From: Plantactinospora endophytica
GTDB taxonomy: Bacteria > Actinomycetota > Actinomycetes > Mycobacteriales > Micromonosporaceae
Direction: 5' to 3'
Assembly (NCBI RefSeq): GCF_016862915.1
Contig: NZ_BONW01000019.1
Location: 248,001-312,000 of the forward strand
DNA: 64,000 nt
Below the pieces are notes generated by a model. The model had not been told where the DNA came from. It worked only from the letters and a program-made list of their open reading frames with translations, and ran no database searches. A program made the translations under genes and the position numbers. This document shows positions 1,623-16,423 of the stretch, piece by piece; position 1 is the stretch's first letter, and the number at the start of each line of letters is the position of its first letter.

Positions 1623-1801
1623 TTGGCCCCCCGCAGGGACACGAACCGGCCCGACGCGTCCCGGACCGCCGGCAGCGGCAGGACGAGCTGATCGGCGCAC
1701 AACGGGCAACAGCCGTCCGCGCTGTCGGTCGGGTCGAACCGGGACTGACACACACCACACCGCGACCGCACCTGGGCCGTACGACGCCTACGCTTGGACA
1801 C
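1619..1801 (-). CDS. small zinc-ribbon protein of the AICE transfer region
   Basis: A 60-residue protein with a basic N-terminus (SKRRRR) and two Cys pairs, CGVC near residue 16 and CPLC near residue 33, the spacing of a zinc ribbon. The function is unknown. The start is the GTG at 1801, preceded by a purine-rich GAGAGAGG about 8 bases upstream; the frame stays open further upstream but without a better ribosome site. Its stop overlaps the start of the FtsK-type gene by 4 bases, so the two are probably translated together. Confidence 0.7.
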   Translation of the reverse strand: MSKRRRRTAQVRSRCGVCQSRFDPTDSADGCCPLCADQLVLPLPAVRDASGRFVSLRGAK

Positions 1802-1898
1802 GTCAAAGACCTCTCTCACCAATGAGCAGGGGGATTTGGCAAAGAGGGGCGGGGCTGCCGTCCGCCAAGACCAGACAGCCCCGCCCACCCAGCAGCGG

Positions 1899-2303
1899 TC
1901 AGGCCGCCGCCAACGACGGGTCACGGGTGACGCCGACCGGGGCGCGCATCCCGGTGGCCCGTAGCGAGTACGCCATCCGGCCGTTGTTCGTCACGTACGG
2001 CGTGACGGTCATGCCGTCGAACTCGACCGCCTCGAACGGCGTACCGGTCGGCGGGACGGGCTGGTAGTCGGCCGAGATCTTGACCGTCGTTTCCCGCGAC
2101 CGCTTGCCCAGCTCCGGGTCGAGGTCCATCACCCGGACCTGCCACACCCGCTGACCCGTCACCTTGTCCTTTGCCGGGGTACGCCGACCCGTCTTCTCGT
2201 CGTAGTCCTCCACCTCACCCAGCGACTCGGGCACCAACGCGCATCCCGCCGGGAACACGTCCTCACACCGGACCGCGAACCGGGTCCCACCACGCAGAGC
2301 CAT
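1899..2303 (-). CDS. Pra-like plasmid replication/integration/excision activator
   Basis: A 134-residue protein resembling the AICE replication and excision activators typified by Pra of pSAM2: N-terminal MALRGGTRFAVRCEDVFP, then VWQVRVMDLDPE, VKISADYQPVPPTGTPF and a C-terminal YSLRATGMRAPVG. This is family recognition from memory. The ATG at 2303 has GGAGG 8 bases upstream, which decides the start over a longer reading frame from 2330. Inverted operator-like repeats lie directly upstream (2321-2386), as expected if it is held off by a KorSA-like repressor. In the pSAM2 model Pra turns on rep, xis and int; those genes would lie left of the window. Confidence 0.75.
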   Translation of the reverse strand: MALRGGTRFAVRCEDVFPAGCALVPESLGEVEDYDEKTGRRTPAKDKVTGQRVWQVRVMDLDPELGKRSRETTVKISADYQPVPPTGTPFEAVEFDGMTVTPYVTNNGRMAYSLRATGMRAPVGVTRDPSLAAA

Positions 2304-2613
2304 CGCACGACCTCCAAGGTTGTCTGCCAAGACTCTTGCTTGGCTGCCAAGTTGTCACACTGACCGTAGCCGCGACTTGGCAGACATGTCAACCAGTGAT
2401 CGCGACGAGCTGTTGGGGAGCACGTCTGCGGCAATAAGTAATGCGCATATATCTACTACGCGAAAATTGCCGGTCTTGGCTGATAGCCCAGAAAGGGGCG
2501 GCATCGCCGATGCTACGGCTTGCTTGGGACTCGATTGGCCGTTGCCCGAGTTGGGGCATCAGAGGAATCGGCGATGCAGCAGGTGACGTTCGCATATCTG
2601 ATGAAACGTTGAC
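2304..2613. promoter_or_regulatory. divergent regulatory region upstream of pra
   Basis: It holds no convincing gene. TGTCTGCCAAG (2321-2331) and CTTGGCAGACA (2376-2386) are exact inverted 11-mers, and a perfect palindrome CTTGGC-T-GCCAAG lies between them (2339-2351). The rest (about 2400-2613) is AT-richer and probably carries the promoter of the rightward gene at 2614. Related half-sites (TGGCTGCCA, TGGCAGACA) occur upstream of the GntR gene at 6806. Confidence 0.6.
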
Positions 2614-3933
2614 ATGGCCGCCGCCGAGCGCTCTACTGACCTGATGATGCTTCGGCCTGGAGTGCATTGGTTGTATGAGTGGATGGACGAATATGGCGTC
2701 GAGAGAAAAAATGTTCCAGATGTATTTAAATCTGCAGCCGCAGTGGCACGCCTTAGTGAGCTTATCTCAACCTACATGGAGCAGCGGACTACAGAACTCG
2801 CTTGCCCTACAGGTGCAGTAGTCGGAGGTCGTACACTTGACCTGGCCAGTTCATATACGTGCGCCGAATTCACGTGCCTAGCGACGCGTGTCGACCGAGC
2901 GTTTCTGAGTATCTGGCACTATTTCGACTCGATCGTTCTAGCTGCGCCATCGTCAGTTGACGTACTCCATGCCCTTCATAATAATCCACGGAAAGAACGC
3001 GAGAAGAGCCTTATCCCCCGGATTGCGGACCAGGTGGAGTTTTTTACATACTTGCGATCCATCGGAGCGGACAAGTACATAATCTTTCAAGATAAAGAAT
3101 ATTCCCTCTGCCGGGACTGCCATCAAAAGCTTTCGGAGAGACTTGGTCTTACGGCTGTAGTTGACCGAGCGGCGAGGCGAGAGATAGTTGCGAGATTAGA
3201 GTTAGAGGCAGAGGTCCGAAACCTGCGTGAAGGAACTGGTAGCTGGGTATGCGAAGTGACCCATGAATTCCTTCCGGAAACCTTAGGAATCTGGGTAAGG
3301 TCCCAAAAAAGGCCCGTTAAATGGCTGGTATTTGAAGAGCTGATAAATCGCGGTTCTAGGGCTTTCCTAGAGGATCTTCACCAGAGCGAACACCTCGGTC
3401 TTCCGCTCCTGCAGGAGGTCCGTACTTCTCTATTCAGAGAAGATCCGCTGAGAGACAAAGCCTCAGTGAATGATGTTGCACTTTCGCTTCGCCTGCCGTT
3501 CCTCGAAGGCCTCAAGGCGGCAGACATCATCCTTCTAATGCAGGACGAGAGGCCGAGTTTCGAGAGATTCCAGGCGTCGGTTCGGAGGGCAATTGCTGAG
3601 AAAGTAGAGAAGGCAGGCGACGTTGATCCAGCGACAATTGGTGAGTCGGTCATGCGTGACCACATCAGGCCGGCATTGGCGGAAATTGAACAGAGTATGA
3701 AATCTGCCAAGAGGGCGTTCGCGAAGAAGGCCTCAGCCGGCATTGGACTCGGCGCAGCACTGGTGACGGCCGGTTTGATTGCGGCCATTCCAGTCATTAT
3801 CGGCGCTGGCGTAGCCGCTGCGGCCACCCCGCTTGTGGACTTGAAAAAGCTATTTGACGACCAGAGTTCCGTAGAGTCGAAAGACATGTACTTTTTATGG
3901 AATCTCGGTCGACAGCATTGGGTGAACCACTAG
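2614..3933 (+). CDS. unknown protein with a C-terminal glycine-rich hydrophobic segment
   Basis: A 439-residue protein I do not recognise. The first 350 residues look soluble and alpha-helical, with a CRDCHQK cysteine pair near residue 168. Residues about 375-410 are a Gly/Ala/Ile-rich hydrophobic stretch (for example GLGAALVTAGLIAAIPVIIG) that could be a membrane hairpin. Base composition is clearly lower in GC than the backbone genes, which points to recent acquisition as cargo. No strong ribosome site precedes the ATG at 2614; ATGs at 2644 and 2647 are alternatives. It converges on the glycosyltransferase gene with a 4-base overlap of the ends. Confidence 0.7.
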   Translation: MAAAERSTDLMMLRPGVHWLYEWMDEYGVERKNVPDVFKSAAAVARLSELISTYMEQRTTELACPTGAVVGGRTLDLASSYTCAEFTCLATRVDRAFLSIWHYFDSIVLAAPSSVDVLHALHNNPRKEREKSLIPRIADQVEFFTYLRSIGADKYIIFQDKEYSLCRDCHQKLSERLGLTAVVDRAARREIVARLELEAEVRNLREGTGSWVCEVTHEFLPETLGIWVRSQKRPVKWLVFEELINRGSRAFLEDLHQSEHLGLPLLQEVRTSLFREDPLRDKASVNDVALSLRLPFLEGLKAADIILLMQDERPSFERFQASVRRAIAEKVEKAGDVDPATIGESVMRDHIRPALAEIEQSMKSAKRAFAKKASAGIGLGAALVTAGLIAAIPVIIGAGVAAAATPLVDLKKLFDDQSSVESKDMYFLWNLGRQHWVNH

Positions 3934-4700
3934 GTCTGATCGTTAGTAGTGAGGTTGAGCATCGACCGCAGCGCGTAAGCGCGTGCCTCAATGATCTGCA
4001 TTCGTGCGGTCTGCTCGGCTGGGTCGCGGTGCGCGGCTTGGCCAGTCATCTGGCCGGGCCACTTGCGGTAATGCAGTCCAGGTTCGGCGATGAAGTAGCC
4101 GTCACTGACGACGTTGGCCGCGATGAGTAGGCCGGTGTCCTCCGAGGCGGGTAGGGCCATCCAGCCGCCGAGGGCCAGGAGGAGATCCCGGCGCATGCAC
4201 AGGGTCGCCGGGTGTACGGGCGCTCGGTAGTCGTTGGCCTTCCAGAAGGCGAGGACCGCACCGCGGCTGATCGGTCCGTCGGGCGGGTCCTTGTCCCATC
4301 CGTGTGTCGACCCGTCGGGGTGCAGGTCCAGGACCCGCGATGTGACCCAGCCGAGGTGTGGGTTGTCGGTGAGCATGGCGATGTCTCGGGCGAGCGCGCC
4401 CGGGGTGAGTTGGTCGTCCGCATCAAGGACCTTGACCAACTCGCCTTCCGCCCGCGCCAGCGCGAGAGTCCGGGCGACGCCTGGGCCGCCGGGCCGGCCG
4501 CTGCCGGCGAGGATTCGGGGATCGTCGGGGAGCTGGTCGAGCAGTAGCCCATCCTGCCCGTCCTCCTGGACGAGCCACTGCCAGTCCCACCCGTCCGGCA
4601 TCTTCTGACCGGCCAACGACCCGTAGGCGTCGGCAAGGTATCCGACGCTGGGCCAGTGAACCGGTGTGACGACCGAGACGAGTCGGCTCAAGCGTTCCAC
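3930..4700 (-). CDS. family 2 glycosyltransferase carried by the AICE
   Basis: A 256-residue GT-A fold protein. The N-terminal strand VSVVTPVH, the donor-site region VKVLDADDQLTPGALARD (D-x-D/DD motif near residue 93) and a later PASEDTGLL acidic motif match family 2 transferases. The acceptor is unknown. It begins with the GTG at 4700, inside the last codons of the GntR gene (13-base overlap), so it is translationally coupled to that gene and ends the leftward operon. It has no signal peptide or membrane segment. Confidence 0.8.
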   Translation of the reverse strand: MERLSRLVSVVTPVHWPSVGYLADAYGSLAGQKMPDGWDWQWLVQEDGQDGLLLDQLPDDPRILAGSGRPGGPGVARTLALARAEGELVKVLDADDQLTPGALARDIAMLTDNPHLGWVTSRVLDLHPDGSTHGWDKDPPDGPISRGAVLAFWKANDYRAPVHPATLCMRRDLLLALGGWMALPASEDTGLLIAANVVSDGYFIAEPGLHYRKWPGQMTGQAAHRDPAEQTARMQIIEARAYALRSMLNLTTNDQT

Positions 4701-5500
4701 CGCTTCAGCTTCGTCGTGAAGCAGAGTTCTGTCCGGTCACCAGGGAAAACAACGTCCGCGATCTCTACCACGCGATCCCGGATGTCGTACGACGTCTTGC
4801 GCACGTCCAGGACGGCAACTCCAGCCTCGATGTCGAGTAGTTCCGCCTCGTCCGGCAGCGGTGGCCGGGCCTGTACAACCTCTTCGATGCGGTCTAGTTC
4901 GATGCCGACGGTGGAAAGCTGGTGTTGGGTGCCGCCTGGCCATGGCTCGTAGTCGGCGGACAGCAGGTGCTTGTTGCCTTTTACCAGGTCGTACGGCAGG
5001 TAGGAGTAGGACGCTGACAGCGGTGCGGTTTCGTGCCGGGAACTGGTCCAGTAGACGCGCCGCAGCAGCGGAGTACCGACCGGCAGCCCGAACGCCGCCG
5101 CCATCTCCTCGTCCGCCTTCACCTCGGAGTACTCGGCGTGGAACTTGAGGTCATCCACCGTCAGCCCGGTGTCATGCTCGGTCCCGCCGGTCCGCCGCCG
5201 TTCGGCCTCGTCGAGCAGTACCCGGTCCTTCTCCCACTGGTACCGCTCGGTGTTGCGCCGGCGGATCCGCTGCCGGGGTGCACGTACGTAGGTGCCCCGG
5301 CCCTGCTCGGCGCGGACCAAGCCCCACTCCCGAAGCTGTCGGATGGCGTTACGCACGCTGGTCCGGGACAGTCCGGACGAGTCGGCCAACTCCGTCTCGC
5401 TCGGCATGGCCGTACCCCGGGCAAGCTCTCCGCTCTCGATCCGGGCGCGCAGCTCCTCGGCGAGCTGGAGGTAGCGCGGGCGCCAGTCACGAGAGTTCAC
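4688..5500 (-). CDS. GntR family transcriptional regulator (HutC/UTRA type)
   Basis: A 270-residue regulator. The N-terminal winged helix (YLQLAEELRARIESGELARG then PSETELADSSGLSRTSVRNA) is classic GntR, followed by a UTRA-like effector domain (LRRVYWTSS, SYSYLPYDLV, VLDVRKTSYD). I used the GTG at 5500 because the domain begins directly after it (NSRDWRPRYLQLAEEL); the frame continues upstream to 5584. The inverted repeat AGACGT-TGAG-ACGTCT (5520-5535) lies just before the start and could be its own operator. It sits between the DUF6907-like genes and the glycosyltransferase on one strand. Confidence 0.85.
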   Translation of the reverse strand: MNSRDWRPRYLQLAEELRARIESGELARGTAMPSETELADSSGLSRTSVRNAIRQLREWGLVRAEQGRGTYVRAPRQRIRRRNTERYQWEKDRVLLDEAERRRTGGTEHDTGLTVDDLKFHAEYSEVKADEEMAAAFGLPVGTPLLRRVYWTSSRHETAPLSASYSYLPYDLVKGNKHLLSADYEPWPGGTQHQLSTVGIELDRIEEVVQARPPLPDEAELLDIEAGVAVLDVRKTSYDIRDRVVEIADVVFPGDRTELCFTTKLKRWNA

Positions 5501-5519
5501 GCCGCTTACGCTACCGCCT

Positions 5520-5535
5520 AGACGTTGAGACGTCT
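5520..5535. promoter_or_regulatory. candidate GntR operator AGACGT-N4-ACGTCT
   Basis: A 6-4-6 inverted repeat lying 20 bases upstream of the chosen start of the GntR gene. A related CTAGACGTC occurs in the promoter region of the same operon near 6752-6760. Binding is inferred only from symmetry and position. Confidence 0.4.
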
Positions 5536-5561
5536 GCCGGGCCGTCGACCTGTCGTGCCGG

Positions 5562-5918
5562 TCAGACACCGCCCTCGTCCCCAAGCAGCGGATCTTTTTG
5601 GAGCTGCCAGGCCCCGACCGGATGCGGAAGGTGCAGGATCTCAGCGATCATCCGACCGGTCTGCGCGAACGTGAGCAGTACCGTTTCGGTAGACCCGTAG
5701 TGCGTGACATCGATCTTCAACAGCGGTGCGTGCGCGGCTCCTCGATCGGCGACGAGCTGAACACTAAGCCAACCACTGCCCTCCCGGCCCACGGTCGCCA
5801 GCCGGCTACGGTGTTTCGGGTCCGTCGGCCGGCAGCCCTGACACCACACGGGACACACATCACGCTGAGAGACCGGGACCCGCCTCACCCCGCCGTCGCC
5901 CTGGTCACGCTCGACCAT
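5562..5918 (-). CDS. DUF6907-like small protein, copy 2
   Basis: A 118-residue protein with a Cys-rich N-terminal motif CPVWCQGC near residues 22-29, followed by a beta-strand-rich body (WLSVQLVADRG, LLKIDVTHYG, VLLTFAQTGRMIAEIL). This resembles the small actinobacterial DUF6907 proteins often found on mobile elements; the function is unknown. The ATG at 5918 has AGGGGGG 5-6 bases upstream. It overlaps the end of copy 1 by 14 bases. The two proteins share the aromatic-Trp-Cys motif and look like tandem paralogs. Confidence 0.7.
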   Translation of the reverse strand: MVERDQGDGGVRRVPVSQRDVCPVWCQGCRPTDPKHRSRLATVGREGSGWLSVQLVADRGAAHAPLLKIDVTHYGSTETVLLTFAQTGRMIAEILHLPHPVGAWQLQKDPLLGDEGGV

Positions 5919-6252
5919 CGTCGCCCCCCTGCTGCGGCGTGAATCCCGCTTGGCGCAGCAACTCGTCCAGGTGCCGAGCGAGCCGCCACGCCTCGGCCAG
6001 CCGGAGCACCGCCCCGCCGGATCCCCGGAACCGACCAGCGGCATGGATCCCGAGAACTGCTGAACCTGCCTGCCCAGCGAACAGGTACACAACGACGGTG
6101 CCGCCGCCGCGCCTGTCGCCGATCGCTCGAACCGACCCCTTGTGGCGACGTAGCGGCCGTTCAACCTCAGCAGGCAGCATGAACTCACATCGCTGCGCTA
6201 CGCACCATGGCGGGTGTACCACGTCAGGCCATCGCGGAGACGTCTCGCTCAC
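5905..6252 (-). CDS. DUF6907-like small protein, copy 1
   Basis: A 115-residue protein with HPPWCVAQRC near residues 15-24, followed by VVVYLFAGQAGSAVLGI and a C-terminal helix with RLAEAWRLARHLDELLRQAG. It is similar in layout to the downstream copy. The GTG at 6252 overlaps the stop of the preceding small gene as GTGA, which supports this start; a GTG at 6261 is an alternative. The role is unknown. The Cys/Trp motif could bind metal, but that is inference. Confidence 0.65.
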   Translation of the reverse strand: MSETSPRWPDVVHPPWCVAQRCEFMLPAEVERPLRRHKGSVRAIGDRRGGGTVVVYLFAGQAGSAVLGIHAAGRFRGSGGAVLRLAEAWRLARHLDELLRQAGFTPQQGGDDGRA

Positions 6253-6482
6253 TGAGGCCACCGCCCGCCATGCCCCCGGAACTCCTGCCCGAGCGTCAAC
6301 AGCGGTGCAGACCTCCAAACGTTGTATTCGTGCGTGCGGGCGATGGCCCACGACGGGGCACCAGGCGGGGGCATCGCGGGAACGAGGCCACGGCGAATAA
6401 CCGGGGCGGGCTCCGGATCACGAGCGCGACGCCGTGATGATTGCCAGATCGCGAGACGGACGAGCAAGCGGGCACCAACCAT
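6249..6482 (-). CDS. small unknown protein of the AICE operon
   Basis: A 77-residue Arg- and Pro-rich protein, not recognised. Support comes from context: a strong ribosome site AAGGAGG lies 5 bases before the ATG at 6482, the upstream stop overlaps it as TGATG, and its own stop overlaps the next start as GTGA. The N-terminal MVGARLLVRLAIWQSS may be a short amphipathic helix. Confidence 0.5.
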   Translation of the reverse strand: MVGARLLVRLAIWQSSRRRARDPEPAPVIRRGLVPAMPPPGAPSWAIARTHEYNVWRSAPLLTLGQEFRGHGGRWPQ

Positions 6483-6718
6483 CACGACCTCCTTGCAGGG
6501 CTAGGAAGGCCGGTGGCCGGCGCCTGGGGGAAGGCAGCCGACCACCAGCCCGACGACGGCACGGCGCACCGCCCGTTGGCGGTCTCGGGTATCGCCATGC
6601 CCAGCTCAGGCACGTACAGGAACGCGATGAACCGCTGCCCAGCGCGTGAGTGCTCTGCGGTTGTGCGACCGGGCCGAAGGCGTGCCAACCCCTTGTCATG
6701 CCTACGTCCCGGCCGCAC
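6482..6718 (-). CDS. small unknown protein at the head of the leftward AICE operon
   Basis: A 78-residue reading frame whose C-terminal two-thirds (RFIAFLYVPELGMAIPETA, then SSGWWSAAFPQAP) looks like a folded protein. The start is uncertain: GTG at 6718 is the longest, without a clear ribosome site. The stop overlaps the next ATG by one base. I do not recognise a family. Confidence 0.45.
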   Translation of the reverse strand: MRPGRRHDKGLARLRPGRTTAEHSRAGQRFIAFLYVPELGMAIPETANGRCAVPSSGWWSAAFPQAPATGLPSPARRS

Positions 6719-6746
6719 ATCTGGAAAGGTACCTACAACTAGGCGA

Positions 6747-6799
6747 CTTGTCTAGACGTCCAAGATGACCATGGATGGCTGCCAGGAACATGGCAGACA
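6747..6799. promoter_or_regulatory. divergent operator region between the AICE operon and the KorSA-like gntR
   Basis: CTTG-TCTAGACGTC-CAAG (6747-6764) contains the palindrome GTCTAGAC and shares CTAGACGT with the region before the first GntR gene. TGGC-T-GCCA (6776-6784) and TGGCAGACA (6791-6799) reproduce the half-sites found upstream of pra at 2340-2386. The region serves two divergent transcripts starting near 6718 (leftward) and 6806 (rightward). Confidence 0.5.
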
Positions 6800-6805
6800 G
6801 GTACG

Positions 6806-7576
6806 GTGAGGCTCGTGCCAACCCCGCACAGGCAACCCCGGTACCGCGCCATCGCCGACGAACTCCGTCGCCGGATTGCGGCAGGAGCCATCCCAGCAGG
6901 GGCTCTTATCCCTTCCGAGGGTGCGCTAACCGCCGAGTTCAGCGTCGCCCGAGGAACCATCCGCGAAGCTATCAACGTTCTCCGCAGTGAGGGCTTGATT
7001 GTTACGGAACACGGCAGGGGGTCCTACGCTCGCCCCAATCTCCCTGTGCGCCGCCTCGGACATGACCGTTACCGCGCCAAGCAATCAGACAGTCCCTTGT
7101 TGAATGAGATGGACGGCCCAGACGGACTTGGTGAGGCTGACCGAACGGAGGTCAGTTGCCGGGAAGTGCCTGCCGGTCCGGAGGTTTCCGCGCTTTTTGG
7201 GGTCGCCCCCGGGACGATGATGCTAGAACGCCGAATGCTCGTAAGCAGGTACGGACTACCCCAACACCTGACGATGTCGTACTACTTGCTTGAAGTAGTC
7301 GCTGGTACGGCGCTCGCTGAGCCGGCTTGGGAGCCATCGCCAAGCGGCTATGTCGCGCAGCTCGAATCGCTTGGAATCACTGTGACCGCGATTCGCGAAG
7401 CCGTACGAGCGCGGATGCCAACCGTTGCAGAAGCCGGATTGCTGCGGATACCGGCCGGTGTCCCACTCCTTGTGGTCACGCGGCAAACACGGTCACACGA
7501 ACGGACGGTAGAAGCCGCATTCAGTACGATCCTTCCGGCCGATCGGTTCGAATTGGAGTATGAGATCAAGATATGA
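6806..7576 (+). CDS. GntR family regulator, probable KorSA-like repressor of the AICE
   Basis: A 256-residue protein with an N-terminal GntR winged helix (YRAIADELRRRIAAGAIPAG, PSEGALTAEFSVARGTIREA, HGRGSYARP) and a UTRA-type domain (APGTMMLERRMLVSRYG, TMSYYLLEVV, TRQTRSHERTVEAAFST). KorSA of pSAM2 is a protein of this type that represses pra and its own gene. Here the same operator-like sequence occurs upstream of both genes. The start is the GTG at 6806 or at 6815; neither has a strong ribosome site. It converges with the 822-residue gene. Confidence 0.8.
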   Translation: MRLVPTPHRQPRYRAIADELRRRIAAGAIPAGALIPSEGALTAEFSVARGTIREAINVLRSEGLIVTEHGRGSYARPNLPVRRLGHDRYRAKQSDSPLLNEMDGPDGLGEADRTEVSCREVPAGPEVSALFGVAPGTMMLERRMLVSRYGLPQHLTMSYYLLEVVAGTALAEPAWEPSPSGYVAQLESLGITVTAIREAVRARMPTVAEAGLLRIPAGVPLLVVTRQTRSHERTVEAAFSTILPADRFELEYEIKI

Positions 7577-7632
7577 GATGGGTGCGGTGGCCGGCTCGCG
7601 TCGGCCCTAGCTAAAGATGCACTCTGATCAGA

Positions 7633-10101
7633 CTACTTGTTTCGTTTACCCTTTCCGTTCCGCCGGTTGGTTCTCCCATTCGCCCGCCACGGTCGTGGGC
7701 GCCCTGTTGGTTGACTCATGCGTTCGGCTGGCACGAGACGCATGTCGGCAACGAGTTTATCCAACTCTTCGTCCGGTTTCCATGGGTCATTCTGATAGTC
7801 CGTCTCGACAATCGATCCACCTACGTCGACTAGTACACCGAGGACGCGGTCGGCCCGAAGTTGATGTTTTTTTGCTTTCATGTATTCGGACAGTCGACGT
7901 TTTGCGTCGGGATAACCCTCTGGCTGTGAGCCCACGAAGAACATTCCCTGGCCCCAAGGTGTCAAGAATCCTTGAGCAAGGGTATGGAAGCCATTATCCT
8001 CTCGCGTGTTGTCGACTACCTTCTGGATGCTGCGGGCCAATCTACGTTGTGCATCTGACGAATAGTTAGCAAGATCAGCCCCGAAGCGGAGCCAACCCGG
8101 CTTCCGATTGGCCTCAAGATACCTTAGGATGCGCTCGATTCCGGGCTCTTCCGAACGGGTTGGGCGGGACGCCTCAATAGCACTGGATCCTTCCGTGAAG
8201 TACATCCAGGCATCGAGGTCATCGGTAAGGGTTCCGACTCGGGTAGGAACTTCCTTCTTGAAGCGTCTGCGCTCGCCGGTCCTCGGGGGGGAAGACTCCG
8301 GGAAGCGCTGGTGTAGTAAATCGGGATCAGCTGTGAAATAAAGCCCGCCCTTGAGGAACCACATCAAGACATCGAGTTCGTCAACTGCAACGAATAAGCG
8401 TGCGGCCTGTGGTTCTGTTCGGCGTCGCAGGTAGAGAAGAAACGACGCGCTGCTGTCGAATAGCTTCGCGGCAACCGCAAGATCGTGTAAGGACACGATC
8501 CAAGGGATCGAGTTTCCGGGAAGTAAATCCGCTCGGACAAGAGCATCGGCCGCGATCGCCAGCGGGCCGAAATCATCAAGGCAAACAGCAATCGAGTGGA
8601 CTTCTCGTACGACAGATAGGTCGATCCACTGTCCGTTCTTACGCCATAGGCCCCCATTCTCAAGAATAAGGGACTCTACTCGTTGTGCCTGCTGTGTGGC
8701 TTCCCCAATTGTTTTCTTGAGATCGTCGGCAAGGCGGAGTGCGTTGCCGCCCCTGGCCTTCTCTCGGATCGAGCCTGCTTTCACCTCTATGCAAATCGCA
8801 ACGTCGTCGACTACAAATAGGCCGTCGGTTTCACCGTCTCCTGCGTAAACTTTTGGGTTCACGGCGGAGCGACTTAAATCGCAATCGGAGCTGCCTCTGG
8901 GCGGCGCCAAGTACTTTAGTCCCTTGTAAGTAGGCGCTGCGACGCCAAGAAGTCCGGCAACTAACTCGCATGCAAACTTTTCGGCGAAACTATCACGCTG
9001 TTCTCCATAGATGTTCCATGCATTGTTGTCAGGCGACGCCTTGATTTGCTTCTCGATAAGCCGTCTTATGTGGTCGATTGGGATGCCATTTTGCAACATC
9101 AAGTAATTGCCGTTGCCGTCGGCAAGTAGGTCGATCCCGGAGAGGATGTTACTTCCGTTCGCGTACGAGGTAATAAGCGCCTCGGCGCCGCCACCACTTA
9201 TCGGGTGGCTGAATGTCTGTAGAACGGCTTCTACCCGTTGTATTTCAACCCCACTACTTGAGGCAATTGTTGCTGCGCTGAAGGCGCTAGGAGCCCCAGG
9301 TGAAATGAAGAAATCGTTGAACGCCTGCCTGGCGAGAGCCTCATCACTAGCGTCTAGTTTTGTGCCGCCAGCATGTAGAGACGCGGCGTGATCAATGGCA
9401 TCAAGTAGGGCCGACTTCTTACTTGTATATTGCTCCCGTATCGTATCTCTTACCGCGCTTATCTCACCATATGTAAAGCCGACGATCCGCTCAAGTGTTT
9501 CCTCGATTTGCGGTATCTCAAGGATACCTCTGTTGAGGATTTCGCCGATCGACTCATAGTGTTTCCCTCGGATCATCAACTCGCTCGATCGTAGCTGGCC
9601 TGCGAGTTCCGCCAAGGGACCTAGGTCTGGATTTGCGCCTAGCGAAAGACCCAGCAGAGTCGTGAGTTTAAGAATCTCTCGCGCATGCGCACAGAGATCC
9701 TCGATTATGGCATTCGGATGCGGCAGGCCTTGTTCCTCGTCGGCATCCAGGCCATCTGCCGGAACTACTCGCGACCCGAGTCCGATAGCCACCAGGGCCA
9801 CAACGTCAATCACCGCAGCCAGCCCGCTATTCTGGCTCTCCTTGTAGCCGGTAAGAAATGGCGGTATCTCATGCTGACGCACTAGTTCAAGCACATCAAA
9901 TACATCCTGGCCGACAAGGAGTTCGGCCATGGCAGCTACGTGAAATTGAATTACGTGAGGGGCTTGGTTGTTGATGTCGTTCCATGAACCAGCGGGGACT
10001 AATCCTTCAGAGAAGCGGTTCATATTTGTTAGGAGGGATGAAATGCCCTCCTGTCCATCGACGATCATCCGGCGGTCGCTTCTAGAGTTCCTGCCGGACA
10101 A
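7633..10101 (-). CDS. large cargo protein with a PD-(D/E)XK nuclease-like core
   Basis: An 822-residue protein, not assigned to a named family. Residues about 425-465 read ETDGLFVVDDVAICIEVKAG, the D-x(n)-E-x-K signature of PD-(D/E)XK nucleases, with a conserved-looking Glu in FAEKFACELVAGLLG upstream and QQAQRVESLI downstream. The N-terminal 300 residues look helical; the C-terminus is Arg/Lys rich (NGRTNRRNGKGKRNK). I chose the TTG at 10101 because AGGAGG lies 5 bases before it; an ATG at 10068 is possible. GC is well below that of its surroundings. It may be a defence or DNA-processing protein, but that is inference. Confidence 0.75.
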   Translation of the reverse strand: MSGRNSRSDRRMIVDGQEGISSLLTNMNRFSEGLVPAGSWNDINNQAPHVIQFHVAAMAELLVGQDVFDVLELVRQHEIPPFLTGYKESQNSGLAAVIDVVALVAIGLGSRVVPADGLDADEEQGLPHPNAIIEDLCAHAREILKLTTLLGLSLGANPDLGPLAELAGQLRSSELMIRGKHYESIGEILNRGILEIPQIEETLERIVGFTYGEISAVRDTIREQYTSKKSALLDAIDHAASLHAGGTKLDASDEALARQAFNDFFISPGAPSAFSAATIASSSGVEIQRVEAVLQTFSHPISGGGAEALITSYANGSNILSGIDLLADGNGNYLMLQNGIPIDHIRRLIEKQIKASPDNNAWNIYGEQRDSFAEKFACELVAGLLGVAAPTYKGLKYLAPPRGSSDCDLSRSAVNPKVYAGDGETDGLFVVDDVAICIEVKAGSIREKARGGNALRLADDLKKTIGEATQQAQRVESLILENGGLWRKNGQWIDLSVVREVHSIAVCLDDFGPLAIAADALVRADLLPGNSIPWIVSLHDLAVAAKLFDSSASFLLYLRRRTEPQAARLFVAVDELDVLMWFLKGGLYFTADPDLLHQRFPESSPPRTGERRRFKKEVPTRVGTLTDDLDAWMYFTEGSSAIEASRPTRSEEPGIERILRYLEANRKPGWLRFGADLANYSSDAQRRLARSIQKVVDNTREDNGFHTLAQGFLTPWGQGMFFVGSQPEGYPDAKRRLSEYMKAKKHQLRADRVLGVLVDVGGSIVETDYQNDPWKPDEELDKLVADMRLVPAERMSQPTGRPRPWRANGRTNRRNGKGKRNK

Positions 10102-10972
10102 GGCCGCCTCCTGTATTGCTCGTGATGGGTGGTGGGCAGGCTACCATCCAGCGGTGCGGTCCGTATGAGTCGTGAGTGCAGACTCTATTCATTCGCATTG
10201 GTGATTTGTTAGACTAAGAGGGCCTTTCCGGCTCGTCTATTTGGCTAGTGGTGCCCAACCCCGGGTACATATGAGCGTTTTATGGGGTCAACTGATCGTG
10301 TGACGTCGCAGGGTGCCAGTCACGCATCCGGATCTTCAATTCTAGATCGGATGTTCCCGACTAAAAGCGCATGCGTCCGCTTAGACCGGATGCCCGTTGC
10401 CGAATAGTCCTCTAGTAGATAGATCAAGCGCTCCGCGCGGCGCGGGCCGGGCGCGGCAACCGGCTCCTGCGGAGCCGCCGCCCCGGCCGCCTCCGGCGCC
10501 GGGGCGGAAAGTCAGCCGGCCCGCAACCCACGCCCACCCCGCGCGTCCACCTAGTCCCAGAAGGAACCACGGGACGAGTCACAGCTTCCCGGACAGGCAG
10601 ACGAGAGCGAACTAGACCCTTCCCCAGAGCGAGCACACGAGCCGCAGCGACCAGACGCCGACACCCGGGCATCTCACGGAACACGAGGCCGGTCGCGGAT
10701 AGGCAGAGGAGGGAAGAGGGAAAGCGAGATGAAGAGGTGGGGTGGCTTAGAGCGTGCCTCCGGCGGGGGCGCTTCGGGCTTCGGGGATGGAGGTGAGCCA
10801 TCCCGACCACCATCGACCCAGGCAAGCCGAGCAGACCGGGGCCAGGGTGCCAAGGTCGTTCGTCCAGTAGGGCGCTCCACCTTGTCACCCTGGCCCCGGC
10901 CCGCTCCACGGTGTGTGGGTCGACGGCGGACGGGATGGCGAGGAGACGAATCATCCAGCAGCGATCGAGTTG
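10102..10972. other. 870-base non-coding stretch with GC-rich inverted repeats
   Basis: No supported gene. At 10430-10515 the sequence is extremely GC-rich and contains stacked hairpins: GGCTCC-TGC-GGAGCC, and CCCCGGC/GCCGGGG arms around CGCCTCCG. At 10836-10899 there is a long inverted repeat described separately as a terminator. The left part (10102-10420) is AT-richer and probably carries the promoter of the leftward 822-residue gene. Open frames on either strand here are Arg/Pro-rich and look spurious. Confidence 0.5.
10836..10899 (-). terminator. long hairpin downstream of the 494-residue nuclease-like gene
   Basis: The arms CCGGGGCCAGGGTG-c-CAAGGT and ACCTTG-t-CACCCTGGCCCCGG pair almost perfectly around a 24-base loop. 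It lies 74 bases past the stop of the gene ending at 10973. There is no T-run, as is common for actinobacterial terminators. Confidence 0.5.
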
Positions 10973-12457
10973 CTAGGCAGCCTTGTCCGACTCGCCGTGC
11001 AGTTCGTCTCGTAGGTCCTGCGGTGGCTTCATCTTCGACGCGGACTGCTTGGGACGGGCGTCGACAACGATTGGACGGATCTCGACGTTGTACCGGTCGG
11101 AGGCGATCCGAGCAGCTTGCCCGATCTTGTTGGTTTGGCTCTCTGTCATCTCGTCGTCGGTGTAGGCAATCGCTACGAAGAACGCGACGTGAACATCTTC
11201 GGACATGGCGTATTGCGGTGTTTGAGCGAGGATGCCGTCCCAGAACTTCGAGTTGGACATCAGCTTCATCTCAACGACCGTCCGGGCGACCCAGCCTGCG
11301 GCGAAGTGGAAGTCGACCGGACCTCGGCCGGCGTTGGCCTCGCCCGTCATGCTGATGTCGTTCGCCTTGCAGTAGTGCTTGGCACAGCTACGGAACAGCG
11401 CCTGGACCTTCTTCTCTGGCAGCGAGACGCCAAGGTGCCAGAGCATCTGCCACTCGTCTTGGTGTTCGATGCCGTGCCGGAAGGACTGAATGACCTCCGC
11501 GACGAACTCCGGGAACTCGGAGTGATCCTTCGGTACGTAGGAGAGAGGCGAGCGCTCCGCGATCTTGCCCCCCATCTCCCACCACCGGGTACGAAGCTTG
11601 GGATCCTTGTCGACCGGGTACGGCTCGTGCTCTGTGTGCTCCAGGTCCTTCAGGTAGGAGGCGACAATTGCCGGGTTCTGTCGTGCCATCTTGGCCTTCT
11701 CCCGGCTGTCCACGTTCCGTGCGATCAAGTAGTTGAAGTTCCCGCGGACTTCTTCGCTGTGGTTGCGCCAGGCGTAGTTCCAGAACCCGTTCGCACTGAC
11801 TACCGGGATGTCCTTGAGGAACCGCTTCGGCACGAGCAAGACGGGGCCGGGCCGGTCGAGGAACGGGTTGGCCGGCAGGTCGACCTCCTGCGTCTGCCAG
11901 GAGGCAAACTCTTCGCTCCACGCGGCGTTGCGCACCCGGAAGCGCTTCATCGGCACGCCGTGCCGGCGGGCGATGTCCTGCGTGTACCTGATGAAGAAGC
12001 TCTTGAGGATGTTGCAGACCGCGTCGCTGATCCGGTCCAGCCCCATGCCACCCTGAAAGAGACCCAGCATCTCCATGTGCGGGACGTTGTCGATCCCGAG
12101 CCCGAGGGCAGTCTTGACTCCGTCGAGCATGCCCTCCTGTAGACCACGGCCCGCTCCGGAGCCGTTCGGCGTCCCGTCGGCCACACCGAGGCAGAACTCC
12201 GCCGGCTCCGGGAACATCAGCAGAGCCTGAGCCTGCTTCCAGGCCAGCGACTTCTCGTTGCCCTTCGACTCCCGCACGAGCCCGAAGACCAGCGCGAAGA
12301 AGTCGAGGGTGTGATCATGCGCCTCGAACCACCGTTCGTCGGTGTCCGGGTAGATGAGGAAGGGATCGACACACAGGTTGGTGTCGGTGGGCAGGTAGGT
12401 GTCAAACCAGTCGTCCTGGTCCGTACGGCGGATGCCGTGCAGCTCGCTCCAGCGCAT
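10973..12457 (-). CDS. cargo protein with a C-terminal PD-(D/E)XK nuclease signature
   Basis: A 494-residue protein of unrecognised family. A nuclease-type motif set is visible near residues 370-430: ISMTGEANAGRGPVDFHFA, then VVEMKLMSN (D-x(n)-E-x-K), then ILAQTPQYAM with the usual Gln. The N-terminal part (RRTDQDDWFDTYLPTDTNL, VDPFLIYPDTDERW) looks conserved and folded. The ATG at 12457 has AGGAGG 6 bases upstream, which decides it over the ATG at 12478. It stands alone between long non-coding stretches, like a defence cargo gene, but the function is unproven. Confidence 0.75.
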   Translation of the reverse strand: MRWSELHGIRRTDQDDWFDTYLPTDTNLCVDPFLIYPDTDERWFEAHDHTLDFFALVFGLVRESKGNEKSLAWKQAQALLMFPEPAEFCLGVADGTPNGSGAGRGLQEGMLDGVKTALGLGIDNVPHMEMLGLFQGGMGLDRISDAVCNILKSFFIRYTQDIARRHGVPMKRFRVRNAAWSEEFASWQTQEVDLPANPFLDRPGPVLLVPKRFLKDIPVVSANGFWNYAWRNHSEEVRGNFNYLIARNVDSREKAKMARQNPAIVASYLKDLEHTEHEPYPVDKDPKLRTRWWEMGGKIAERSPLSYVPKDHSEFPEFVAEVIQSFRHGIEHQDEWQMLWHLGVSLPEKKVQALFRSCAKHYCKANDISMTGEANAGRGPVDFHFAAGWVARTVVEMKLMSNSKFWDGILAQTPQYAMSEDVHVAFFVAIAYTDDEMTESQTNKIGQAARIASDRYNVEIRPIVVDARPKQSASKMKPPQDLRDELHGESDKAA

Positions 12458-12604
12458 AGGGCGCCTCCTCGTGGACATGTCGAGGCGAACCCTTCGCCTC
12501 GACAGCGCACGCTGACGCCGCGCCCAGAGAGAAACGCCACTCCGGTACCCCGGAGCTCAAGATCTCTATTAGAGTTCCCTTGAGACGACCAATCTCCAAG
12601 AGAA

Positions 12605-12652
12605 CCCCGGCTGGACGGGCGTCGACCCCGACGTCCGACCGCCGGGGCTTTC
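12605..12652 (+). terminator. orphan plus-strand hairpin
   Basis: CCCCGGC (12605-12611) pairs with GCCGGGG (12641-12647), with inner arms GGACG/CGTCC, followed by CTTTCT. No plus-strand gene ends here, so it may close a small RNA or be a leftover. Confidence 0.35.
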
Positions 12653-12767
12653 TGCGTGTCCCGACGAGGATAGCAAAGGCCCCGTGACAGTCCGTGTGTC
12701 CGGGTCGGTCAGACACGTGTTTGTGCTTCACGTCACTGACCACAAGATGTAGGTGCGTCTACAGATC

Positions 12768-12794
12768 TTTAGTCAACATGTTGTGTACTAAAGA
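12768..12794. promoter_or_regulatory. nested palindrome, candidate operator
   Basis: Outer arms CTTTAGT and ACTAAAG enclose the perfect palindrome CAACATGTTG plus TGT. It lies in a gene-free, AT-richer stretch inside the element, 311 bases upstream of the nuclease-like gene start at 12457. Confidence 0.35.
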
Positions 12795-13364
12795 CTGTCG
12801 GACCCTCGTGATAGCATCCCGCGCCCAATCGCTCGGTGGTTACGGTATGTAGCAATAGATCGAGGATTTTTAGTGCACGGCTGGCATTTCCATCCATCTG
12901 GCCACGCTCCCTACCATGATTTGCCGCCTCACGGCAACGCTCTGTATCGCATCCGATCGCAGGTTGGCGCTTCCCATCGCTTTTTGTGTCCATTCGCCCG
13001 AAAAGCCCCCCACACCAGACTGTGCTAAGCAGGGTGCTCCTGATGAATCAACGTCAGTTTCGGTACGGGGCTGCCTCGGGCGTCGGTATGCCTAACGAGC
13101 ACGACGCGGACGCGCGTTCGTGTCGCCCGGTTCGGAGCGATATGCGGACCATGCGCGGCTTAGGGGTTTCAGCCCTCCCTGGCACGCCCGGACGCCGCCG
13201 TCGTGGCTGCTGCACGGGGGTCGGAACTCGGGCAGCGACAGTCCGACCTGCACGGGTCGACGTGCCATTAGCGTGCCATTGAGCCAGGACAACCGGGGTC
13301 AACCGAGGCCGCTGGAGACCGCCGCGACTAGGGCGCCGGCTGGTCGGAGCCCAAACCTTCGACA

Positions 13365-13409
13365 CTTCCCAAGCTGACAGTGCGGGTTCGATTCCCGTCA
13401 CCCGCTCCA
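13365..13409 (+). repeat. 3' fragment of tRNA-Gly(CCC): attachment site 1
   Basis: It starts inside the anticodon loop (CTTCCCAAGCTGACAG), continues through the T-arm GGTTCGATTCC and ends with the acceptor CACCCGCTCCA. The 5' half of the tRNA is absent. It is followed by the tRNA's own terminator remnant (GAAGGCCCTGGTCAG near 13414). This is what an attR left by integration into the tRNA 3' end looks like, and it marks the right boundary of the AICE. Confidence 0.8.
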
Positions 13410-13461
13410 AGCCGAAGGCCCTGGTCAGAGGAACTTTCTGAGCTGGGCGTTCGTCCAGCGG

Positions 13462-14493
13462 CTACGCGGTTAGGCCGGGAGGATAGCCGCACCGCTGGGG
13501 GGAGCAGTCTGCCTCGTGGTCCCGGTACCACAGGCCGTTGTCCCGTTCGAGCATTCGGGCGGTCAGTGCGAGTCGACGTTGCCGCATCCGGGGCAGGGTC
13601 GATGGCAGCGCAATAAAGGTTTCCGGAAGCACAGCCACCATGTCCGTAATCTGCTCGCCATCGATCATGCGTAGCAGCACCCGGCATTGCCACCATGGGC
13701 GGTCGTCGTTGGGCCAGTAGTAGACGGCCGGGTCTGGGAAGAGGTAGTGGAGGGAATCGGGGTCCAGATGAGCCCGGAACCGGGGACTGCCGCTACCCAA
13801 CCCGAGCCGTTCGCGGCCCGCCTCCTCGTACAGGGAGCAGATGCCGTCCCGGTCCAGTGACTTGAGCACCCGTGCCGAACGGGGAAGCGGCCGCTGGCCG
13901 GTCGGGGTGCTAACCGGCCAGCCGGACAGCACACGGATCCGTTGCCGGAAGGTCCAGGCGCTGTTGTCCTTGCGCGGTATCGGCAGCGGAGGAGGCGGCG
14001 TCCACCGGTACCCGGCCTTGGCGATGTGGCGCAGCATCCACTTCCGCCCTTGCGTCCCGGTCGTGTTCCAGGTCCAGCTCATCGGTCGATCCCGCATGGC
14101 TTGCTCCCGACGGCTGGGAGGGTCCGTGCGGGTGGGCCGCTGCCTGGTTCGCGGGCTAGGGGCCAAGGGCAGGTTGTGTGCCAGGTCTGCCAGGAACCGG
14201 ATGTGCTCAAGGACTTCGTTGCTGGCAGCTTTCTCCGGGTTCCGTCGTGGCTGCCCGGCTAGGGCACGAATCTCTATCAGCGCGTGATAGGCCAGTAGGC
14301 CGGCTACCGTCCGGTCATCGACCTCTTCGGACCGTGACCAGAATGACTGAGCCCAGCCCCGTGAACGGACCGGATCCTGCTCCCCCACGGAGGCGTTCTC
14401 GTCTGGTGCCACAACGACATCATTGCTGGCCCGGGCGAGCGCCACGGAGGCAGCCCAGTCCTGCGGCTGGTCCCATCCGGTGAGCCTATGCAC
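13462..14493 (-). CDS. unknown protein in the first att-flanked module
   Basis: A 343-residue protein I do not recognise. The N-terminal half contains RTVAGLLAYHALIEIRALAG and LEHIRFLADLAHNLPLAP, helical and conserved-looking; the C-terminal half contains WTWNTTGTQGRKWMLRHIAKAG and a Trp-rich PWWQCRVLLRMIDG. I used the GTG at 14493, preceded by AGGGGG. The open frame continues upstream into the antisense of the next tRNA-Gly fragment, and that extension (ERVTGIEPALSAWE) is a well-known artefact. It is the only gene between attachment fragments 1 and 2. Confidence 0.65.
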   Translation of the reverse strand: MHRLTGWDQPQDWAASVALARASNDVVVAPDENASVGEQDPVRSRGWAQSFWSRSEEVDDRTVAGLLAYHALIEIRALAGQPRRNPEKAASNEVLEHIRFLADLAHNLPLAPSPRTRQRPTRTDPPSRREQAMRDRPMSWTWNTTGTQGRKWMLRHIAKAGYRWTPPPPLPIPRKDNSAWTFRQRIRVLSGWPVSTPTGQRPLPRSARVLKSLDRDGICSLYEEAGRERLGLGSGSPRFRAHLDPDSLHYLFPDPAVYYWPNDDRPWWQCRVLLRMIDGEQITDMVAVLPETFIALPSTLPRMRQRRLALTARMLERDNGLWYRDHEADCSPQRCGYPPGLTA

Positions 14494-14607
14494 GTGCCCC
14501 CTACGTGCCCGTAGCGCCGGGAAGCCACGGGGAACCGTGGTCAACCACGGGCACCGTGACCAGGAGCGCAGCCCGCTGACCTTGGCCAGGACTGGCGCCC
14601 CAGCGAG

Positions 14608-14649
14608 TTCCCAAGCTGACAGTGCGGGTTCGATTCCCGTCACCCGCTC
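14608..14649 (+). repeat. 3' fragment of tRNA-Gly(CCC): attachment site 2
   Basis: GTTCCCAAGCTGACAG, then GGTTCGATTCC and CACCCGCTC, is nearly identical to site 1 over about 40 bases. It is followed by an intact hairpin, GAAGGCCCAGGTCAG pairing with CCTGACGCTGGGCCTTC (14656-14698), the probable tRNA terminator. Direct repeats of ACGTGCCC near 14491-14508 echo those before site 1. Confidence 0.8.
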
Positions 14650-14816
14650 GGACAACGAAGGCCCAGGTCAGAGGACATTTCCTGACGCTGGGCCTTCGGC
14701 GATCTGATCCGGGGCCATGCCCCAGATGTGCCTCCGGCTTCGCGTGCCCTCCGTGCCCCTCCGTGCCCTCCGTCGTCCCGCTGGCCGGGTCGGCGGCGCC
14801 TGGCGGGTGGCGGGCC

Positions 14817-15335
14817 TCAACTCTTGACGGTCTTTGCGATCTGCAGGGCGGCCTGGCCGGGCGTGAGGTGGGTGGTCTCGATGAACTCGGCCTCGTCGCG
14901 TAGCCACGTGCGAGCGGCCTCCGCGTAGGGCTCGAGGTATTTGAGGCGGAACGGGGAGGGGATGGTGTGTTCCCCCGCGATACGCCGGCGGAGGGTGTCT
15001 TGGTCGGCGTGGAGGACGAAGTGCCTTACCGGGATGGCATGGTGGGCGAGGCCGGTGCTGATCTCGCGCCAGTACTGCTCGACCAGGACAGTCATGGGCA
15101 TCACCAGAGTGCCGCCGGTGTAGTCGAGTACGCGGTGGGCGGTCTCGACGACGAGTTGCCGCCACGGTGGCCAGTGCTGGAAGTTGTCCGTCGCAGGTAG
15201 CCCCGGCGTGATGTCCATGAGTGTCTCGCCGACCTTCTCTGCGTCGAACACCCGTGAGTCCGGGATCAGTTGCTGCACGAGTGCACTGGTCGTCGTCTTC
15301 CCTGCGCCGTGGGTGCCGTTGAGCCACACGATCAT
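14817..15335 (-). CDS. TmrB-like P-loop NTP-binding protein
   Basis: A 172-residue protein with Walker A GTHGAGKTTT at residues 7-16, directly after the start strand MIVWLN. The layout resembles TmrB (tunicamycin resistance) and related small kinases: P-loop at the extreme N-terminus, a D-AEKVGETLMD segment, FVLHADQDTLRRRI, and a C-terminal helix. The ATG at 15335 is used because it places the P-loop where the family has it; the frame is open further upstream. It is alone between attachment fragments 2 and 3. A role in antibiotic or nucleotide-sugar tolerance is only suggested by family resemblance. Confidence 0.7.
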   Translation of the reverse strand: MIVWLNGTHGAGKTTTSALVQQLIPDSRVFDAEKVGETLMDITPGLPATDNFQHWPPWRQLVVETAHRVLDYTGGTLVMPMTVLVEQYWREISTGLAHHAIPVRHFVLHADQDTLRRRIAGEHTIPSPFRLKYLEPYAEAARTWLRDEAEFIETTHLTPGQAALQIAKTVKS

Positions 15336-15433
15336 GGGACCGACGCTACATGTGGCACGTCGCCCGGTAGGTCGACGTTCGATCCAATGCCACTCGAAAC
15401 GCCATCCCGAACCGTCTCGGTCCAATTTGGAAC

Positions 15434-15469
15434 CTCACAGTGCGGGTTCGACTCCCGTCAGCCGCTCCA
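15434..15469 (+). repeat. diverged 3' fragment of tRNA-Gly: attachment site 3
   Basis: CTCACAGTGCGGGTTCGACT followed by CCCGTCAGCCGCTCCA differs from sites 1 and 2 at several positions and lacks the anticodon portion. The downstream hairpin (GAAGGCCCTGGTCAGG pairing with CCCAGCCAGGGCCTTC, about 15473-15514) is kept. It looks like the oldest of the three sites and borders the chromosomal backbone. Confidence 0.7.
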
Positions 15470-15572
15470 ACCCGAAGGCCCTGGTCAGGACATCAAGTCC
15501 CAGCCAGGGCCTTCGACGTTCCGACGACCCCGAGCGCCGGGTACGGCGCGGGCCGTACGCCGCCGGTGCGGC

Positions 15573-16130
15573 TCAGCGGGTCCGGTAGCGCGCGTAGATC
15601 AGTCCGCTGTCGAAGGCACGCTGCTCGACCAGATCGAGATCGAGGCGTACGCCGTCGGGGAAGAACCGCTTGCCGCCGCCGACCACGCTCGTGGTGATGA
15701 ACAGGTGGTACTCGTCCACCAGGCCGGCCGCGATCGCCTGGGCCGCGAGGTTGGGGCCGTCGACGGTGAGGTCGTGATCAGCCTCGGCCTTGAGCTTGCG
15801 TACCGCGTCCGGGTCGAAGGTTCGCTCGATCCTGGTTTTGGCGCTGGACACCGACTCCAACGTCGTGGAGTACACGATCTTCTCTGCGGCCTGCCAGTCG
15901 CGGGCGTACTGCAGGATGTGCGGCGGCAGGTCGGGATCGGTGTGCGCGGTCTCCCAGTAGACCATCGTCTCGTACATCCGTCGGCCGTAGAGGTACGTGC
16001 CGACGGGGCGGAAGAGGTCGTTGATGAAGCTGTGCACCTCCTGGTCGTCGGCCCCGGTGCCGAGGCCGCCCTCTGCCGCCTCGGCGTAGCCGTCGAGTGA
16101 GGTGATCATCGAGTAGATGAGCTTTGCCAT
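15573..16130 (-). CDS. dihydrofolate reductase family protein (RibD C-terminal type)
   Basis: A 185-residue NADPH-binding reductase-like protein. MAKLIYSMITSLDGYAEA at the N-terminus, YLYGRRMYETM, and IVYSTTLESV with DLTVDGPNLAAQAI match the RibD/DHFR-like family, and GGGKRFFPDG near the C-terminus is the typical late motif. The ATG at 16130 has GGAGA about 6 bases upstream. The substrate is unknown. It is divergent from the AraC gene. Confidence 0.85.
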   Translation of the reverse strand: MAKLIYSMITSLDGYAEAAEGGLGTGADDQEVHSFINDLFRPVGTYLYGRRMYETMVYWETAHTDPDLPPHILQYARDWQAAEKIVYSTTLESVSSAKTRIERTFDPDAVRKLKAEADHDLTVDGPNLAAQAIAAGLVDEYHLFITTSVVGGGKRFFPDGVRLDLDLVEQRAFDSGLIYARYRTR

Positions 16131-16423
16131 GCGTCTCCTCCGGGTACGACCGCGTCGGTCTGCCAGCGGTCCTGCAGGTTGTGACGTACGCACGATCCGA
16201 AACTCATCGATCGGCAGGCCGCCGGTTTCCGTCAACCGTCAGAGCCCGGACGGACTGCACCTCGGGCTGCCCGTTCAGCTCCACCGACCCGGCCAACGCG
16301 CATCACGCCCGGGTGGGCACCGCCTGTGCGGGGTCGTGCGGGATCGTCCCGTTCCCCGACGAGGGTGTCGAGCAGGGCGACCGTCCTCGTGTTTAGCAGG
16401 GCGGACGACCGTGGTGTGATGGT

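Follow-up and report, generated by a model that had tools for sequence, protein, structure and literature searches.

In Streptomyces, the available portions of one report described a tRNA-Arg at which AICEs of several families, differing in their integrases, had accumulated together with an ancient element trace without traB between direct repeats. At another site there were decayed elements that had truncated integrases along with cargo genes (PMC9513070). The accretion of AICEs and their remnants at one tRNA is already published there for Streptomyces. Tandem AICEs (Fean5518/Fean5534 and Fean6303), with three direct repeats of one tRNA end and alternative attL sites, were described in the accessible part of a Frankia study (PMC3218068). 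The CIMEs and microCIMEs of Streptococcus are integrase-less and att-flanked, the classical ones measuring 1.2-13 kb and carrying cargo, and the most decayed members of CIME arrays lie farthest from the target gene, according to the available part of the source (PMC7563491). For pSAM2 and pACPL, the available text placed int, xis and repSA by the attP in the tRNA end, with 21-nt arm-type repeats flanking the core (PMC3364876).

The locus analysed here, from Plantactinospora endophytica, is very probably a stratified accretion array at a single-copy tRNA-Gly(CCC), with an AICE innermost, followed by decayed remnants, the second of which holds a kinase gene under selection. The window, i.e. the whole stretch of 64,000 nucleotides that was analysed, corresponds to contig C19:248001-312000.

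The tRNA-Gly(CCC) gene and its 3' fragments

A search of the 9.68-Mb genome (90 contigs) showed one sole full-length tRNA-Gly(CCC) match, at C19:243379-243452 (L006:3379-3452), 4.5 kb left of the window. A second glycine tRNA match, on C41, was a TCC gene. An earlier note on this DNA, made from the letters of the window, had named the tRNA and predicted an attL to the left, and both were right, because the sole full-length gene sits there. Sequence comparison and BLAST also showed that the three tRNA 3' fragments in the window were real and lay at the positions which that note had given. Sites 1 and 2 were near-identical and site 3 was diverged, as it had described. Site 1 was 97% identical to the intact gene over 64 bp once the terminator was included (BLAST), while in site 3 the tRNA positions 36-74 corresponded to 15431-15469 and the preceding bases were degenerate. 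The site-1 stretch, searched against the 9.7-Mb genome, matched the intact gene and site 2 with an E value of 9.6e-24 each and site 3 with 1.3e-16, and these values exclude a chance origin of the three matches. In the alignment, attL, site 1 and site 2 had the same core sequence.

The element ends listed for the relatives carried tandem repeats of several kinds. Five arm words, A to E, were defined from element ends at tRNA-Gly(CCC) in the relatives, that is, from the same loci that were scored. The features of the locus are listed below by window position.

1-13365, no strand: right part of AICE1 (element 1), an element of ~18 kb (C19:243409 to 261365), the rest of which lies left of the window
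L006:3525-3545, left of the window: left-hand arm repeats of AICE1, word A, 1 mismatch to the word
13262-13282, plus: arm repeats at the right end of AICE1 (GTGCCATT-type tandem pair), 2 mismatches to word A
13365-13409, plus: site 1, tRNA-Gly(CCC) 3' fragment, attR of AICE1, 45/45 identical to the intact tRNA end
13413-13453, plus: terminator-like hairpin behind site 1 with a B-type loop, partly mismatched, at the left end of element 2; 58-nt fold -26.4 kcal/mol
13462-14457, minus: cargo gene of element 2 (gene 1), ~320 aa, start probably at ~14443 or further in
14493-14514, plus: arm repeats at the right end of element 2, an exact word B (CGTGCCCCCTACGTGCCCGTAG, 0 mismatches)
14608-14649, plus: site 2, tRNA-Gly(CCC) 3' fragment, attR of element 2, 42/42 identical, tRNA positions 31-72
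14656-14698, plus: terminator hairpin of B type following site 2, at the left end of element 3; 58-nt fold -31.6 kcal/mol
14741-14762, plus: damaged left arm that matches word B poorly (4 mismatches)
14817-15335, minus: P-loop kinase of AAA_33 type, 172 aa (PF13671, 1.1e-6), the cargo gene of element 3
15395-15425, plus: right end of a C-type element, reduced to its final ~30 bp with loss of the arm repeats; aligned to the 33 bp that precede the attR in G003
15426-15469, plus: site 3, degenerate tRNA-Gly(CCC) 3' fragment, ~90% over tRNA positions 36-74
15473-15515, plus: terminator hairpin behind site 3 with an A/C-type loop (inverted repeat I3); 58-nt fold -34.7 kcal/mol

Long minus-strand ORFs at 14655-13462 and 13410-13054 were found to start inside the antisense of a tRNA fragment (peptide ERVTGIEPALSAWE), and gene callers may stretch proteins into the att sites here.

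The innermost element

As read from its sequence, element 1 is a complete-looking AICE of 18 kb. The larger AICE that the earlier note had placed beside the small intervals was thereby recognised, with attL in the intact tRNA-Gly(CCC), site 1 as attR, and int, RepSA and FtsK genes; site 1 ends the AICE on its left, and both small intervals lie to its right. L006, to the left of the window, contains its attL together with the int, xis-like and repSA genes. The integrase gene is directly behind the intact tRNA (PF00589, 2.1e-17). The replication initiator RepSA matched PF20199 (1.5e-99), with the NCBIfam RepSA equivalog far under its cut-off, and the FtsK_SpoIIIE-type protein matched PF01580 over the cut-off (5.4e-7), with NCBIfam TraB only far under it. 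Further genes coded for a small HTH_17 protein, a DUF2637 protein and two GntR regulators, along with right-end genes without an assigned role. The two ends share the 45-bp att identity and word A, and their repeats (GTGCCATTggCGTGCCATTAG left, GTGCCATTagCGTGCCATTGA right) are of the same kind. An integrase at a tRNA 3' end, RepSA, an FtsK-type translocase, end repeats and arms were thus all present, as in an AICE.

Two right-end cargo proteins of AICE1 were noticed in passing. The 501-aa protein (10973-12478, minus) matched the PADLOC candidate defence family PDC-M36A (8.8e-25) and phrog_30194 (9.3e-55), and the 822-aa protein (7633-10101, minus) had zero matches in four libraries.

Terminator hairpins

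The hairpin (GAAGGCCC...) that had been noted after every fragment was present at 3/3 sites. The hairpin region of site 2 shared 93% identity with the left ends of B type in G003 and G004. Among the family genomes described below, the 58 nt behind the core folded below the 5th percentile of shuffles for 69/70 intact genes and about 31/42 fragments. In an alignment of 20 sequences, which was not structure-fitted, both-sided changes were seen in 8/12 consensus pairs, with a small covariation term of -0.45 kcal/mol. Since the left end of an element becomes the new tRNA downstream, a newcomer would bring a fresh tRNA end as well as a fresh terminator, and terminator resupply would be a function of element left ends. 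A literature search on terminator restoration returned no paper, which is not proof that the idea is unpublished.

Intervals 2 and 3

Each small interval contained one credible gene and zero integrase homology, in agreement with the single gene and missing integrase noted earlier. In interval 2, the 397-aa ORF that starts inside site 2 probably does not have its true start there: homology to relatives begins at residue 68-114, and at residue 187 in one contig-cut homologue. A true start within the tRNA fragment was set aside as unlikely because homology begins further in. Gene 1 matched nothing in Pfam, NCBIfam, PHROG or PADLOC. Among solved structures, two were matched in a profile search, both with high E values (0.15 and 0.86), and the AlphaFold model of its product was poor (mean pLDDT 58.8, pTM 0.46, 8 sequences). 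Homologues with 48-70% identity were found in nine named actinobacterial genomes, and the gene is also present in Streptomyces plasmids (four records, of which three cover at least 80% of its length). Within the family, which the relatives of gene 1 suggest to be Micromonosporaceae, 11/121 genomes carried it, the own genome included. A role as recombinase partner was considered and dropped, since the resolvase neighbour seen on a Streptomyces plasmid recurs at 1/9 named loci (L080).

The right arm of element 2 was also found in G004, G002 and G003 C11. No arm word was present in the first 150 bp of interval 2, and when up to 5 mismatches were allowed the B word on the right was the only one in the whole interval. 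Its end sequences suggest a B-type ancestor, and interval 2 is probably a remnant of such an element with one gene and its left arm lost. Because the cores of sites 1 and 2 are perfect and the right arm is exact, interval 2 may be younger and less dead than proposed here.

In interval 3 a right-hand arm word was not found. The interval looks hybrid, because a damaged B-type left end is combined with ~30 bp of a C-type right end, as if a deletion had extended across the border between two adjacent elements. Its kinase showed dN/dS of 0.17-0.24 against four relatives. G003 and G001, two other species of the genus, also have the kinase gene behind the AICE: in G003 the order is fragment, kinase, fragment, and in G001 a fragment is followed by the kinase ~0.85 kb further on. 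The DNA identity of the window kinase was 95% to G003 (dN/dS 0.19) and 93% to G001 (dN/dS 0.24), a divergence no greater than that of the chromosomal AraC (89%) and VOC (92%) genes past the array in G003. In G005 and G002 the kinase gene lies elsewhere, in neighbourhoods that share only that gene (blastn). The kinase need not have arrived by a mobile element, because these orthologues are at unrelated places. The kinase gene of interval 3 is thus long-lived and maintained, and interval 3 would be as old as this gene.

Behind site 3 lies a RibD_C-type gene (15573-16235, minus). It was not found by blastn at the other census loci except in G248, as a 66% stretch that is also behind an array. The gene may belong, as cargo, to a fourth remnant that is eroded further than the other two.

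Comparison with related genomes

The census covered 70 family genomes, 14 chosen earlier (the own genome and 13 relatives) and 56 with high search scores. The sample is biased, the 13 relatives having been picked mostly for the content of their tRNA-Gly locus and the 56 being on one or few contigs, and most of the 70 were viewed for only ~20 kb behind the tRNA, some for less. A total of 29/70 genomes carried at least one extra tRNA-Gly(CCC) 3' fragment of at least 29 bases behind the intact gene; because mostly ~20 kb was viewed, fragments may have been missed in the 41/70 fragment-less genomes. The earlier note had named a three-fragment arrangement fixed and identical in all relatives as an outcome that would refute it; in the family genomes examined the arrangement was variable.

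Matches below 29 bases (one each in G252, G103 and G090) and two 25-bp intervals in G210 were left out of the counts, so that 40 intervals of at least 100 bp were counted (42 before the G210 pair was dropped). With trimmed integrase queries, integrase homology reached at least 250 aa in 15 of these, was a fragment in 7 and was absent in 18. Integrase-less arrays are common, since 25/40 intervals had no full-length integrase. Both matching arms were kept in 4/18 intervals without integrase homology and in 6/7 with integrase fragments, so an integrase-less interval is not always dead, and units of this sort could be live satellites. The two intervals of the window were not among the units that keep both matching arms.

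Boundaries were scored in the first 150 bp with up to 4 mismatches to a word, a level that 16/2100 random 150-mers from the same loci reach for some word; words A and E are close in letters. The same word was found left and right in 21/24 scorable intervals (permutation mean 8.2; 0/10,000 reach 21). The exceptions were G001 (C left, A right), whose integrase frame is full-length, G005 in its second interval (E/A), and G123 (A/E), in which the words involved are close in letters. Integrases formed tight groups for words B (84-91% identity), C (85-95%) and D (65-90%); those of B and D were 44-59% identical to all others, and those of C were 59-79% identical to the A-word ones. The link between word and integrase was loose for A and E. 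The A-word integrases were ~58-83% alike, the first integrase of G196 had word A yet was 87-89% like E-word integrases, and the integrases of G087 and G103 were 99% identical but scored C and A.

Three further loci gave observations of their own. In G210 (L087), ~2.3 kb behind the tRNA, an anticodon-loop and T-arm repeat was present in three copies 25 bp apart, which is a small tandem array of the att core. In L061 (G003 C11:150001-168000), two more tRNA-Gly(CCC) 3' fragments were seen at 11337 and 13152, with C-like and B-like right arms; they were uncounted because the fetched stretch has no intact tRNA. In G004, an extra 1.37 kb present in C7 and C8 relative to C1 was considered as an excisable module and was instead an insertion with a 421-aa DDE transposase (PF01609, PF13808), at L062:12934-14300 on C7 against L057:18466-18475 on C1, with a 10-bp target duplication inside the interval. 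The presence of this locus with and without the insertion in one assembly reflects either a recent insertion or a mixed culture.

Proposed history and alternative explanations

In the accretion reading, elements with different integrases would use one crossover core, from the anticodon loop to the 3' end. Each newcomer would integrate at the tRNA, bring a new 3' end and its own hairpin, and displace earlier elements outward. Deletions would then wear down the outer elements until att fragments, isolated arm repeats and occasionally a useful gene were left. Next to the AICE would be the B-type remnant with one gene, and beyond it would lie the hybrid remnant (B left, C right) with the kinase kept by selection. 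The damage was observed to rise outward: element 1 is complete, element 2 has one arm left, and element 3 is a hybrid with a broken core. Within this reading we infer the order of events, deletion as the cause, and the present immobility of both remnants.

The earlier note had interpreted the small intervals as two CIMEs beside the AICE, and the part of this that was supported is that they are integrase-less, bordered by att cores (intact at sites 1 and 2, degenerate at site 3) and accreted. They contained no Pfam transfer or recombination domains, their ends resemble B- and C-type element ends of relatives, and no ancestral genes are left in them. Mobilisation in trans was the part that was not supported. 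Each interval has no arms on one side, the core at site 3 is damaged, and no B- or C-clade integrase was found in the own genome, where the closest protein was that of AICE1 itself (52% to the B clade, next 34%; 69% to the C clade, next 33%). In the six further genomes of the genus, moreover, matches to gene 1 were confined to its first 65 residues, which are the tRNA and arm stretch. It is quite improbable that the two intervals are CIMEs still excisable by an integrase supplied in trans, even with the perfect cores at sites 1 and 2, the exact B right arm and the integrase-less intervals of relatives that keep both arms counted in its favour. Older remnants appear to fit both intervals better. 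Mobilisation in cis, by which the AICE integrase would recombine attL with site 2 (or 3) and the remnants would leave in a composite circle, is conceivable though doubtful. The core that attL shares unchanged with sites 1 and 2 speaks for it, as do the tandem AICEs of Frankia, which excise both singly and jointly according to the available part of the report (PMC3218068), but the arms at site 2 are of type B, unlike the A arms at both AICE ends, and the core at site 3 is degenerate.

It is extremely unlikely that the small intervals are ordinary chromosomal genes and that the tRNA fragments came from local duplication of the tRNA end. The kinase orthologues at unrelated places in G005 and G002 would suit such an origin, but the fragments of most relatives begin near tRNA position 31, and what flanks them is often an element's arm repeats instead of the sequence upstream of the tRNA; gene 1 has a sporadic distribution and is found on plasmids too, and no relative was seen with these genes at this place but free of fragments. 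A family-wide extension of the accretion reading is put forward as speculative and rather unlikely. Several integrase groups with distinct arm words would share the tRNA-Gly(CCC) core, the small units that keep both matching arms but no full-length integrase (10/40) would be satellites moved by the integrases of co-resident AICEs, and reshuffling across groups would give hybrids such as interval 3 of the window and the interval of G001 with C left and A right.

Comparison with known systems

The general process is already known; the locus is an ordinary example of it with clear details, and the array is unusually easy to read. It suggests that an integrase-less att array can be read like strata, in which core, terminator type and arm word hint at the kind of integrase and at lost boundaries. 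The same features offer a simple sequence check of whether a presumed CIME could still be moved, and the kinase would be a case of cargo kept by selection after its carrier died.

Compared with pSAM2 and pACPL as described in the available text, AICE1 has a like layout and like arm-type sites and differs in its tRNA and arm words (PMC3364876). The array resembles the Streptococcus CIMEs in the absence of integrase, the att-type flanks (one core degenerate here) and the decay increasing outward, whereas those derive from firmicute ICEs and IMEs with att sites kept, in the part of the report available, and here one arm set is missing from each interval (PMC7563491). It shares with the Frankia AICEs the tandem arrangement and three repeats of one tRNA end; theirs excise experimentally, as the accessible part of that study reports, while the two extra intervals here have no integrase (PMC3218068). 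Stacking at one tRNA, element traces and decayed forms with cargo are common to this locus and the AICE/DAICE elements in the available portions of the Streptomyces report, and the present array differs from them in its tRNA-Gly(CCC) target, its other family, its one-gene remnants and the arm words that are read as marks of their origin (PMC9513070).
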